Below are positions 3,504 to 55,379 of a DNA stretch of 64,000 nucleotides, piece after piece. The translations under genes and the position numbers were made by a program. A model generated the notes under the pieces. That model saw only the letters and a program-made list of their open reading frames with translations, was not told the DNA's origin and ran no database searches. Each line of letters opens with the position of its first letter. The first letter of the stretch is position 1. The stretch is from Blochmannia endosymbiont of Camponotus (Colobopsis) obliquus (GTDB lineage Bacteria; Pseudomonadota; Gammaproteobacteria; Enterobacterales; Enterobacteriaceae), in NCBI RefSeq assembly GCF_000973545.1, contig NZ_CP010049.1, positions 62,001 through 126,000 of the forward strand, read 5' to 3'.

Positions 3504-4052
3504 ATGAATATTTTAAAGGATGTATTGTACGCGTTGTGGCAACATAATTTTGAAATTTTTTCTAATTTTAGTTTAGTTTTTGTTATTTATTTATTGGTTT
3601 TTATTGTTCTTGTATTAGAAAATGGTGTTTTACCTGCAGCATTTTTACCTGGAGATAGTTTGTTAATTTTTACTGGTGTGTTGATTTCAAAGGGCACTTT
3701 AAGTTTTCCTATTACTTTGAGTTTACTAACTGTTGCTGCTAGTTTAGGTAGTTGGATGAGTTATTTGCAAGGTAGATTTTTAGAAAATAATAAGTTTATA
3801 CAGAGTTGTTTTGCTCGATTACCTAAATATTATCACCATCGCGCGTATCAAATGTTTCATAATCATGGTTTATTTGTTGCTTTAATTGTTAGTCGTTTTA
3901 TTGCTTTTATTCGTACTTTATTACCAATAATTGTTGGTTTTTCTGGGTTATGTAGTTTTCGTTTTCATTTTTTTAATTGGATAAGTGCTTTTTTATGGGT
4001 ATTAGTTCTTACCGTTTTAGGTTTTATATTGGGTAATACTATTGTTTTTTAA
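3504..4052 (+). CDS. yqjA: DedA-family inner-membrane protein, C-terminally shortened
   Basis: DedA-family membrane protein closest to E. coli YqjA, whose family supports proton-motive-force-dependent membrane homeostasis and undecaprenyl-phosphate or lipid handling. The FLENGxLPAAFLPGDSLL signature near residue 38 carries the conserved Glu and Asp; the basic SRFIAFIRTLLP segment near residue 130 carries both essential arginines. Several hydrophobic segments are visible. It has 182 residues where E. coli YqjA has about 220: the frame stops right after LGFILGNTIVF, so the last transmembrane helix and tail are absent and the following bases do not encode one in any frame. The paralogue YghB is a possible alternative, but N-terminal similarity favours YqjA. 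Confidence 0.85.
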   Translation: MNILKDVLYALWQHNFEIFSNFSLVFVIYLLVFIVLVLENGVLPAAFLPGDSLLIFTGVLISKGTLSFPITLSLLTVAASLGSWMSYLQGRFLENNKFIQSCFARLPKYYHHRAYQMFHNHGLFVALIVSRFIAFIRTLLPIIVGFSGLCSFRFHFFNWISAFLWVLVLTVLGFILGNTIVF

Positions 4053-4457
4053 TGAGGTATGAGCGAGAGAGAAGAGCATTATAATTTATAATGTGTAGCA
4101 TTTTTTTATTTTGTGTCATTATCGTTGGTGATTAAGTCGGCTATTAGTTTATAAAATGGCACAGCGGTATGTATACTTAAGAAATAATGACTTTATAAAT
4201 ATTTTTTAAAGTAGTGGTATAAGATAATGTTGTTGTTTAGAGTAAGCATGTTTTAAATAATTATTTTTTTACTGTTTTTAATATTAATATATCTGACATG
4301 AATTAATATTTGTGTATGAAATGAATGTTTTGAATTATCAGATTATAAGATATTACAGAGTGTTAACATTACATATCACATCAAGAAATGTAAGACAAGA
4401 CTGTTTTTTAGAATAGACGTTAGTTTAGTTTTTTGTGTTTAAATATATCTGACGGAT
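4053..4457. other. Intergenic spacer yqjA-tRNA-Ile2
   Basis: Non-coding spacer between the converging yqjA and the minus-strand tRNA. No homologous frame and no strong hairpin was seen. Confidence 0.4.
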
Positions 4458-13732: not shown

Positions 13733-14736
13733 TTTTAATATAGTTGTATTTATAATTGGTTATTTCTTGCAAGTGTTGATTTGTATAATATTTGTTCTAC
13801 ATAGATTCTATATACTAGGATATTATAGTCAAATGTTTAAGCATTTTTTTAATTGTTATATATATGCATTTTACTAAATGCATACTATAACCTATATTAT
13901 GAATTAGTTAAGTAAACATAATTCGTCTATTAAATTCTTACGATAGATACAATTTATTTTTTTGTGATGTCTATTATTCGGTTATTGTAGTTTATTATTG
14001 TAATAATAGAGGTTAATGTTGATTATATCATAGATTATGATGATTATAGTTGATCTGTAGTATATATAATGTTTTGTTTTTTTTTTACTATCTTATCAGG
14101 TAGATATTGAGCCAGGTATTAAATGTTTATTTTATTAGGATGTGTGGATTGTTAATTTTGGTATTCGGTGATACCATTTAACATGGTTTAATCAATGTTG
14201 ATATTTTGAATATTTTTGTTTGATTTGTATAAAATCAGGAAAATTGTTGAGAATATTAGGTATGTGATATGTTATATATGTGCTACTTATTTTTTGTTCC
14301 AGTTAGATGACATATAATTAAGGAAATTTTTAGTTATTTATGAACATGCTATTTTTAAATAAAAATATATTTTTTGTATTTTGTATATAGAATAATTTTT
14401 TTGTTTTGGAGCATGATTTTATATGTTTTTATGTGTTTAATTATTTTATGTACTGATTCATTGTTTTGATTGATATAGTAAACTATTTATATAGTTTTTT
14501 TTTGGTTTTATTTAATATTGTATTATTTGTTATGTTATCGTGAAAATAATGTTATGTTTTATGGTTTATAAATTGTTTGACGTGATGATTATCATGTAGT
14601 AATTATTACTAATATATTTTGTTTGTAATTTTATTTAGTCAAATAATGATATTTTGTTACTATTCTATATCAGGGTTAAGTTATATTTCTATTATTATTT
14701 TTTAAGTTAATTGTTTTTTAAGGGGTGTAATGGTAA
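13733..14736. other. 1-kb spacer between cca and hldE
   Basis: Long non-coding spacer. In E. coli ygiM, ygiF and glnE lie between cca and hldE; none is recognisable here. A GGGGTG purine-rich site at 14721-14726 upstream of hldE is the only feature I can point to. Confidence 0.5.
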
Positions 14737-15687
14737 GTGGTTTTTATTGATCCTAACTTTCGTCAAGTTAAAATCTTGGTTGTAGGTGATGTTATGTTGG
14801 ATAGATATTGGCGTGGAGATATAAAAAATATCTCATCAGAAATGTCTGTTCCGGTTATGCAAGTGAATGCTATTGAAGAGTATCCTGGAGGCGCTGCTAA
14901 TGTAGCAATGAATATTGCTACATTAGGTAGTAGATCAAAATTAATTGGTTTAATTGGTGTTGATGAATTTGCTAAGGAATTAAAAAGAAAAATTGTTGAA
15001 GCACATGTTGAACATGATTTAATTCCTGTTATAAATTGTCCTACAATAAATAAGTTACGAATTATTTCCCATAATCAACAAATTTTACGATTGGATTTTG
15101 AGCATTATTTTAGTAAAAATGATGCTTTGTCCATTTTTTATCGTGTTCAGTGTATATTATCGGATTTTGATATATTAGTATTATCTGATTATGCCAAAGG
15201 TTCTTTAGGTTATATAGACGATATTATTTCTTTTGCGCGCAGGATTGGTATACCTATTTTAGTAGATCCCAAAGGTTCTGATTATTCTCGTTATCGTGGT
15301 ACTACTGTATTAACTCCTAATTTATTAGAATTTGAATCAGTGGTAGGTCAGTGTACAAATGAATGTATGTTAATACAAAAAGGTATGGAAATTTTAGTTG
15401 ATTATGAAATATCAGCGTTATTAATTACTCGTTCTGAACAGGGCATGATTCTTTTACGATTGGGTGCGAAACCTGTATATTTTCCTAGTCAAGCAAAGGT
15501 AGTATGTGATGTGATTGGCGCTGGAGATACAGTAATTGCTGTATTAGCAGTTTCTTTATCTTCTGGAAATACAATAGAAGAATCTTGTTTATTGGCTAGT
15601 TTTGCAGCTAGTGTAGTGATTGGAAAATTTGGGACTTCTACTGTAAGTTCTACTGAGCTATGTAAAGTAATGCGTGCTACGAGATGA
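14737..15687 (+). CDS. hldE: HldE domain 1: D-glycero-beta-D-manno-heptose-7-phosphate kinase
   Basis: PfkB-family kinase that makes heptose 1,7-bisphosphate for the lipopolysaccharide inner core. It equals residues 1 to about 316 of the 477-residue bifunctional E. coli Hld[14 protein letters not shown] near residue 15, the [14 protein letters not shown] motif, [12 protein letters not shown], and the catalytic GAGDTV near residue 260 (preceded by DVI where E. coli has DVT). The frame ends in TGA at 15685-15687 inside the region corresponding to the interdomain linker, and the second domain starts in the -1 frame with a 4-base ATGA overlap. I read the start GTG at 14737 as reasonable since it aligns with the E. 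coli N-terminus. Confidence 0.92.
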
Positions 15688-16169
15688 ATTGTATATTTGG
15701 TATAGTAGATCAAAAGATATTAAAAACAATGGTTTTAATTGCCAGAAAGCATTATGGTGAAAAGATAGTGATGACTAATGGTATATTTGATTTACTTCAT
15801 GTTGGACATGTTTATTTTTTAGCTAATGCAAAAAAATTAGGTGATAGATTGATTGTAGCAGTAAATTGTGATTTTTCTACTAAAAAATTAAAAGGTAATT
15901 TACGACCTATAAATGGATTATCGCAGCGTATGACACTTTTAGCGGCATTAAGAGTGGTAGATTGGGTTGTGCCTTTTTATGAGGATAATCCTTGTAAATT
16001 AATAGCAGATTTATTACCTGATGTGTTAGTCAAAGGTGGTGATTATCAATCATATGATATAGCTGGTAGTAAAGAAGTATTGGCTAATGGTGGTGAAGTA
16101 CGTATTTTGAAATTTAGACATGGTTATTCTACGAGTAATATTATTAATATTATACAAAGCGTTAAATAA
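15684..16169 (+). CDS. hldE: HldE domain 2: D-glycero-beta-D-manno-heptose 1-phosphate adenylyltransferase
   Basis: Cytidylyltransferase-like domain that adenylates heptose-1-phosphate to ADP-heptose, the C-terminal activity of E. coli HldE. It contains [16 protein letters not shown] with the HxGH nucleotide motif, [26 protein letters not shown] and the ending [10 protein letters not shown]. The first 30 or so residues before GEKIVMTNG still resemble the E. coli linker, so this is the old fused gene broken by a frame change, not a newly acquired hldC. Its ATG at 15684 overlaps the kinase stop (ATGA), which would permit translational coupling; an internal ATG at 15729 is an alternative start. 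Both halves keep catalytic motifs, so two working subunits are likely. Confidence 0.9.
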
Positions 16170-17599
16170 CATTCGATACTAAAATAATATGAGTAGTAAA
16201 TTAAAAAAAAGTAAAGGGTTTGATTATTTGTTATATACAAATTTTTTCGAAACATTATCATAATATTTATAATGTTGTTAGTTTATTATAAAAAATTTTT
16301 TAAGGAAGATAATTTTTAGTGTTTTTTAAAATTTGTTTTTGTCGAGAATAGTTTATTATTGTGCATGTTTAAATTTAGATCATTGTGTTGTTTTGTTGTA
16401 TTGCATTGTTTTTATGAGTTTTATTGTGTTATTTATTAAGTTATTTGTTAAGTTCGTTGTTTTATTAACATTCAGATTGGATTGTGTTGTTGTTATATAT
16501 ATCTACTGATATACAATGTTTTTTATTTTTTTATTTGGAGCGTTTTGGTATTATGTTAGTGATTGTATGTAAGTAAATTATATTCTGGAAATGTTTTGCT
16601 ATTATGGGTTGTTTTTTTGTTTAGTAGTATGGTATGCCTATAGAATGAGTGAATACTACATTTAGTGTTTTCGTGTAATAGTGACGGTGTTGTAGTGTGG
16701 ATAATGATTGTGACAGTGAAGGTGATATGATTTTTTTGCTGCAGAGAATATGATTATTAAATAAAAAAATGGGCACTGGCAATTCGTTATGTAAGTGGTA
16801 TAGTTTGTCTTTGTTGCATAGAAGATTGTTGTTAAAAATTGAAATTATCAATGATGGTAAAATGTAAAATTAAAATAATCGCTATTGTATAAGTTCGTTA
16901 GTACGACAATTATTGCAGCGACATCAGGTATTACGATGAGAGTATTTGTAACAACAAGATAGATTAATTGTTATGTGTTCTTTTATCAAAGATAATGCTA
17001 AACCAATTTTTTTTATTGACTAGAGTATGCTTTGTCTTGATATGTTACTGATTATTATAGGAGGTATTTGGGTATTCGTCAAGGTTACCGTATGTTATGG
17101 GTTATGGTAAAGGTTATGTTGAATCAGTGGTGGATTTAACGTATTTGGTTGATTAAAGTCTATCGGATTACTATGTTATTTTATCAAGAAAAATGATAGT
17201 ATTTTCCTGTATTTTATAAATAATAAAATTTCGAAATCAATGTTATATGCTGTTATTAATTGTTAGCAATTTAACAGTTTACCGTTTATTTATGAGATTA
17301 ATGTAATATTTTGTGGTTAGTTGTGCTTTCAGGTAATTAACTGTTGTATGTTTAGATGTTTTGGTGTTTTGTTTTTAAGTATAAAGATAATTATTTTATA
17401 TTTTCTGTTTTTTATTTTTTTGTTTTTGTTTTTTAAATTTATTTGTGAAATATATTTTAGTTTGTATTTTGTTTGTTATGTTTTTTAATAGAGTAAGCTT
17501 GCTTTATTGTTCTATAAGTAATTATGCGAATAGAAATGTTGCGTGATTTTGTGTGTAAAATATTTTATTTATATTGAAAACAGAATTATGGGGTAAAAT
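16170..17599. other. 1.4-kb spacer upstream of plsC, possible gene graveyard
   Basis: The longest empty stretch in the window. The part around 16620-17170 is less A+T-rich than ordinary spacers and contains short open runs broken by stops, the look of an eroded gene. In E. coli parC lies directly upstream of plsC, so a parC remnant is the obvious candidate, but I could not align any ParC motif and so do not annotate it. No RNA gene was found. Confidence 0.4.
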
Positions 17600-54542: not shown

Positions 54543-55379
54543 ATGATTAATAAGTTAAAGATAAATTATAAAAAACCTTTAGTTATGGGTATTTTGAATA
54601 TGTCTCCGGATTCTTTTTCAGATGGAGGGGATTTTTGTTCTTTTAATAAAGCTATTGATCGTGCTGCGGTTATGGTTGCGGAAGGAGCTGATTTTATTGA
54701 TGTTGGTGGAGAATCTACTAGACCTGGTGCTTCTGATGTTAGTGATAGTGAGGAAGCTTCTAGAGTAATTCCTGTAGTAACAGAGTTAGTTAAACGTTTT
54801 AATGTGTATATTTCGGTCAATACATCCAAACCTTTAGTAATAAGAGAAAGTGCGTGTGTAGGAGTACATTTAATTAATGATGTGCGGTCTCTTAACGAAG
54901 TTGGTGCGTTAGAAGCTGTTATTGATAGTGGATTATCAGTATGTATAATGCATATGCAAGGTTCTCCGAATACTATGCAAATTAATCCTTCTTATGAGGA
55001 TGTTGTGCAAGAAGTGGATGCTTATTTTTTTAAACAAATTCAACGCTGTGAAATTGCTGGACTGAAAAAAAATAAATTAATAATTGATCCTGGTTTTGGA
55101 TTTGGTAAGTTTTTAAAACATAATTACCAACTTTTAGCACATTTAACATATTTTCATCATTTTGGAGTTCCTTTATTAGTAGGAATATCTCGTAAATATA
55201 TGGTTGGTCAATTAATGAATGTTCCTCCTAAAAAAAGAGTTATAGGTAGTATTGCATGTGCTGTAATTGCTGCTATGCAAGGTGTTCAAATTATTCGTGT
55301 TCATGACGTTAAAGAAACTACAGAGGCGCTTAAAATAGTTGCACATACACTTTGTTATAAGGAAAATTTTTTTGTATGA
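54543..55379 (+). CDS. folP: Dihydropteroate synthase
   Basis: Joins 6-hydroxymethyl-dihydropterin diphosphate and p-aminobenzoate. ATG 54543 gives 278 residues, E. coli 282; a TTG at 54534 is an alternative. [36 protein letters not shown], the DPGFGFGK loop with its Asp, GISRKYM with the catalytic Lys and the RVHDVKET end are conserved. The loop-2 motif SVDTSKP reads SVNTSKP: Asn93 replaces the residue equivalent to E. coli Asp96. It overlaps glmM by 4 bases (ATGA), as expected for coupled translation. Confidence 0.96.

Follow-up and report, generated by a model that had tools for sequence, protein, structure and literature searches.

Probable functional fission of hldE into two overlapping frames in the Blochmannia endosymbiont of Camponotus (Colobopsis) obliquus

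Introduction

The fused HldE of the Enterobacterales carries a kinase and an adenylyltransferase domain in a single polypeptide. In the Blochmannia endosymbiont of Camponotus (Colobopsis) obliquus, whose genome consists of one contig of 773,940 bases, the two domains lie on separate frames, and the locus raises the question of whether a fused enzyme has returned to a working two-protein state or whether the gene is decaying, rescued into a fused product or simply misread. We favour, with good confidence, a fixed and functional fission, in which one message would yield two proteins by termination-reinitiation and these would act as HldA and HldC do. This reading is supported by the completeness of both domains, the overlap between them, the conservation of their residues, the existence of a split sister lineage and the open frames of gmhA, hldD and a heptosyltransferase gene; within it, we infer that reinitiation takes place, that both enzymes are active and that no fused product is made. 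The locus would then clearly exemplify the return of a fused enzyme to two subunits during genome shrinkage, and the overlap between the frames would keep the two coupled. All coordinates below refer to the window, that is, the whole stretch of 64,000 nucleotides analysed here, unless stated otherwise.

Results

Layout of the split gene

The kinase half (PfkB family) occupies positions 14737..15687 of the forward strand, with a GTG start, a TGA stop and 316 aa, and the adenylyltransferase half follows on the same strand at 15684..16169, with an ATG start, a TAA stop and 161 aa. The two share the four bases ATGA at 15684..15687, as the sequence-only reading of this DNA had described, and their stop/start distance of -4 is one of the two (-4 or -1) that mark coupled pairs. 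The window holds a second ATGA overlap, between folP and glmM (55376-55379). A Shine-Dalgarno-like AAGGGG is seen at 14720..14725 on the forward strand, 11 nt 5' of the kinase start, where it may serve initiation. Downstream of the adenylyltransferase half lie relics of ribB (16700-17005), in agreement with a ribB pseudogene listed in the available text of the genome paper (PMC4389277).

In the alignment with fused HldE rows, the interdomain linker of the fused proteins is open and made of whole codons, whereas here the conserved Glu and Gly that bound it are separated by 41 nt, a length not divisible by three. The second frame moreover opens with linker-like sequence (compare VGILDEKTLK of B. 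pennsylvanicus), its first residues being the former linker. The odd length and the surviving linker point together to a net frame change in place and not to a replacement, which is what had been proposed from the letters alone.

Completeness and descent of the two halves

The kinase half scores 358.1 bits against the NCBIfam model TIGR02198 (cut-off 345) and 137.1 bits against PF00294, and the adenylyltransferase half 187.7 bits against TIGR02199 (NCBIfam cut-off 181.5) and 63 bits against PF01467. Both thus exceed the curated cut-offs for stand-alone domains, as would be expected of an HldA and HldC pair, and the two-protein state suggested earlier is in keeping with these scores. On the full HldE model NF008454 (475 positions), the halves cover positions 5-314 and 320-473, so that little except the linker goes unmatched; both domains are complete and in order, and the scores are divided over two proteins (420.5 bits for the kinase half and 231.3 bits for the adenylyltransferase half), neither of which reaches the 521-bit cut-off for a one-polypeptide HldE. 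The claim that the catalytic motifs of both halves are kept also holds: of the columns that are invariant in 25 fused HldE rows (a set that excludes the row of genome G003), the kinase half retains 84/92 and the adenylyltransferase half 57/59. An IolC-type identity was also considered for the kinase and found no support (48.2 bits against TIGR04382, cut-off 300); the ADP-heptose synthase of B. floridanus is placed as IolC-like in the inositol route in an excerpt of PMC1360075.

Separate HldA and HldC enzymes occur, for example, in Neisseria meningitidis and Ralstonia eutropha, according to the part of PMC10221265 at hand. The obliquus locus resembles them in having a complete kinase and a complete adenylyltransferase on two proteins, but here the genes are adjacent, overlapping and derived from HldE. 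It shares sequence, domain order and motifs with fused HldE, both that of the Enterobacterales and that of 13 other Blochmannia genomes; each of those 13 encodes it in a single open frame of 478-494 aa, not in two. Apart from a split sister described below, the nearest listed relatives are fused HldE proteins, at 53-58% identity among the matches listed, and the split gene groups with Blochmannia HldE at 85/73 in a tree that included no HldA row. Comparison with the stand-alone heptose kinase PDB 4e84 gave 234.5 bits as against the 420.5 bits of the HldE model, two scales that allow no strict comparison. An origin in a separate HldA/HldC lineage finds no backing here, and the pair is probably HldA + HldC by function and HldE by descent.

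Coupling of the two frames

The net frame change in the linker would have put the kinase stop onto the adenylyltransferase start codon. Ribosomes would start at the kinase behind the Shine-Dalgarno-like motif, terminate at its TGA and begin again at the ATG that overlaps it, and the separate halves would work in the ADP-heptose pathway that feeds the inner core of the lipopolysaccharide. In the portion of PMC10666635 available, the distances that occur most often by far between same-strand genes are reported to be overlaps of 4 and 1 nt, coupling to require such short distances, and reinitiation to drop steeply with distance, so that about 20 nt nearly abolishes it. No Shine-Dalgarno-like motif is seen before the adenylyltransferase start, which counts against reinitiation in view of the result, taken from an excerpt of PMC6728339, that deleting such motifs weakened reinitiation in 4/5 E. 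coli pairs.

Decay as an alternative

The best surviving alternative, though an improbable one, is that hldE is a broken gene in the course of being lost, its halves unneeded and its open frames mere relics. The rest of the pathway gives this idea some substance. One heptosyltransferase-family gene with a PF01075 match has an open frame in the obliquus genome; by gene order behind hldD we take it to be waaF and the next, frameshifted one to be waaC. The latter, outside the window (G000:C1:739058-739739), consists of two overlapping frames (L123:3286-3930 and 3866-4297) that change at a run of A11 within the domain. A gmhB above the cut-off was not found in the obliquus genome, where the only match (G000:C1:557653-558063) scores 72 bits, below the cut-off of 149.6, and lies in a 365-aa frame that is probably HisB. 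HisB may be able to stand in for GmhB. Taken together, the waaC frameshift and the gmhB result suggest that the ADP-heptose pathway may be weakened in obliquus, and the ribB relics adjoin the split gene. Other symbiont-type genomes have, furthermore, lost the adenylyltransferase half along with heptosyltransferases. Against decay, the gmhA frame is open (206.7 bits, just under the cut-off of 209.45, as are the gmhA genes of 7 other Blochmannia), as is that of hldD, the adenylyltransferase retains nearly all its invariant columns, and in the genomes surveyed a strong adenylyltransferase never occurs without a heptosyltransferase match (37/37 genomes). The searches for gmhA and hldD covered 19 genomes each and that for gmhB 13. 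Genome G001 likewise has only a weak gmhB match (the frames in obliquus and G001 being of 364-365 aa and probably HisB), and stops interrupt the gmhB match of G003 and that of G011.

A neutral control, limited to substitutions and starting from the present sequence, also speaks against decay. After simulated drift to the identity seen with the sister at a GC content of 0.27, 0/2000 kinases and 29/2000 adenylyltransferases were stop-free, and at a GC content of 0.10 the figures were 0/2000 and 31/2000. Since neutral drift rarely or never leaves the halves free of stops, the control argues that both frames have been kept open by selection. In both halves, codons differ from those of fused Blochmannia most often at the third position and least often at the second. 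Against B. pennsylvanicus (G006), differences at positions 1/2/3 amount to 0.332/0.228/0.437 for the kinase half and 0.256/0.212/0.487 for the adenylyltransferase half, as compared with 0.321/0.214/0.513 for the fused turneri-pennsylvanicus pair and 0.253/0.134/0.416 for the fused floridanus-pennsylvanicus pair. The pattern of the kinase half is thus a little flatter than that of turneri-pennsylvanicus, a point in favour of decay, and, with the gene lying on long branches, partial relaxation of the kinase half is possible.

Fused product and sequencing error

It is still less likely, and in our view very doubtful, that a fused HldE continues to be produced through polymerase slippage, which had been raised as a possible rescue, or through -1 ribosomal frameshifting. 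According to the available text of PMC4389277, slippage is believed to rescue Blochmannia genes whose frameshifts lie in homopolymers, and waaC of the obliquus genome has an A11 site of that kind. The hldE break is unlike it, falling between two complete domains and not inside one. A -1 shift could join the frames only within the 22 nt open in both, at 15666..15687 of the forward strand; the longest one-base run there is 2, with an AAA at 15664-15666 touching the edge. More widely, no homopolymer of at least 4 bases occurs in 15628-15711 and no slippery heptamer X XXY YYZ in 15640-15695, so that neither a frame change in a long homopolymer nor a slippery site within the shared 22 nt is available. 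Runs of four or five do occur at 15624 and from 15712 on, but slips there could not join the frames, given the stop of the -1 frame at 15663-15665 and the kinase stop at 15685-15687. With neither kind of site where a shift would help, rescue by slippage is unlikely.

A sequencing or assembly error, for which one base would suffice, hardly deserves consideration, given the 558x Illumina coverage, the checks of questionable bases, indels and majority genotypes or variants that found no position to edit (sequencing section of PMC4389277), and a separate record, 64% and 74% identical in the two halves, that is also split. The split is real and already in print: PMC4389277 gives the same gene pair, BOBLI757_064/065, as two domains of hldE counted as one gene, and the hldE mentions in its available text leave mechanism, age and recurrence untreated.

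Age of the fission

Among the best 120 matches listed, out of 8000 candidates sharing most words that were scored, the nearest kinase is P0002 (313 aa, 64% identity) and the nearest adenylyltransferase P0122 (148 aa, 74% identity). Both lie on one contig of 66,765 bases (source 'lgn'), and this sister lineage, known from protein records only, is therefore split too, with a kinase stop about 4 codons earlier than here. The tree unites obliquus and the sister with 100/100 support on a shared stem that is 0.42 changes per column long, and by parsimony we infer one fission common to both. The fission had been proposed as possibly recent; with the nearest relative found also split and sharing so long and well supported a stem, that dating loses its footing, and the fission is probably not recent. 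A close Blochmannia relative was neither confirmed in one contig scan nor present, judging by titles, among the best 80 of 581 loci in a second. The obvious close relative is the symbiont of Colobopsis nipponica, with a genome of 728,116 bp according to the part of PMC8086219 consulted.

Recurrent fission in other symbiont-type genomes

Both halves are strong and on separate frames in 4/59 genomes surveyed, a figure that is no rate: the set comprises 14 genomes of the genus and 45 relatives hand-picked nearly all for small size, G076 (2.4 Mb) was picked for its short frame, and not every small genome was included. The four are obliquus (open frames of 316 and 167 aa, junction -4); G076, on a contig of 2,414,146 bases (316 and 171 aa, a stop followed by GTG at +11 or ATG at +14); G122 (322 and 162 aa, junction TAATG, -1); and G100 (326 and 162 aa, an in-frame TAA followed by ATG at +6). 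The three other genomes have the same linker broken, strong halves and a restart within 14 nt, yet their junctions differ from that of obliquus; all four junctions fall below the limit of about 20 nt for reinitiation (PMC10666635, as available). One more split pair is formed by P0109 (327 aa) and P0123 (170 aa), which share a contig of 15,676 bases; the tree places this pair together with 12 fused Blochmannia rows (100/98).

On a tree of 32 rows, from which the kinase-only G031 and G018 and the decayed G019 were dropped and in which obliquus and its sister are scored as a single event, four changes between split and fused labels are required and well-supported branches force three, G100 and G122 being long branches of odd composition whose placement is unsure; 22/500 label shuffles gave values as low as the observed 4. 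A family search over 295 genomes, 232 of them with a match and represented by their best rows, yielded short adenylyltransferase frames among the matches listed only in obliquus (167 aa) and G076 (171 aa). Given the different junctions in three other genomes and the one further pair, hldE fission seems to recur, and judging by these sequences several of the events look independent. By title and abstract start, the open-licence full-text literature contains no report that we found of split hldE in symbionts apart from PMC4389277. Repeated fission would provide natural replicates for asking whether fusing the two steps matters.

Persistence of the kinase half

The same survey bears on the separate fate of the halves. 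A strong adenylyltransferase (E below 1e-45; G100, 1.2e-48) is found in 37/59 chosen genomes, all of which, the four split ones included, have a heptosyltransferase match (PF01075, E up to 1e-32; G086, 2.1e-33). Among the 22 without one, 21 have no PF01075 match and G186 retains only fragments interrupted by stops. Eight of these 22 nonetheless keep a strong kinase match (E up to 1e-60). They span 5 genera: G018 (L032), G019 (L033), G031 (L031), G058 (L126), G192 (L124), G193 (L125), G262 (L127) and G160, whose kinase is broken. By reading, the other seven retain the GAGD motif and, at the loci of G019, G193, G058 and G262, a decayed second half follows in the same frame with the HxGH motif altered; no second half is found at the loci of G018, G192 and G031.

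By counting, the G018/G192 kinases give a dN of 0.109 against a dS of 0.424, in genomes that lack both an adenylyltransferase frame at this locus and any heptosyltransferase match, and for G019/G193 dN/dS is 0.281/0.715 in the kinase and 0.552/0.706 in the adenylyltransferase. The kinase of G018/G192 thus appears clearly to be under purifying selection, and the two pairs together indicate that the kinase stays under constraint after the loss of its partner and of the heptosyltransferases. This raises the question of why the kinase persists after its pathway goes. Quite tentatively, and as the less probable reading, the HldE linker might be a recurrent breakpoint in symbiont genomes because fission sets free two separably valuable halves, the adenylyltransferase being kept only while the core is made and the kinase outliving the pathway for a further purpose; two pairs were compared, and in 4/8 genomes (G019, G193, G058 and G262) a decayed adenylyltransferase is still present, so that slow, ongoing loss may be the alternative. 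In G018, one of the kinase-only genomes, gmhA itself lies in two overlapping frames (G018:C5:4321-4780).
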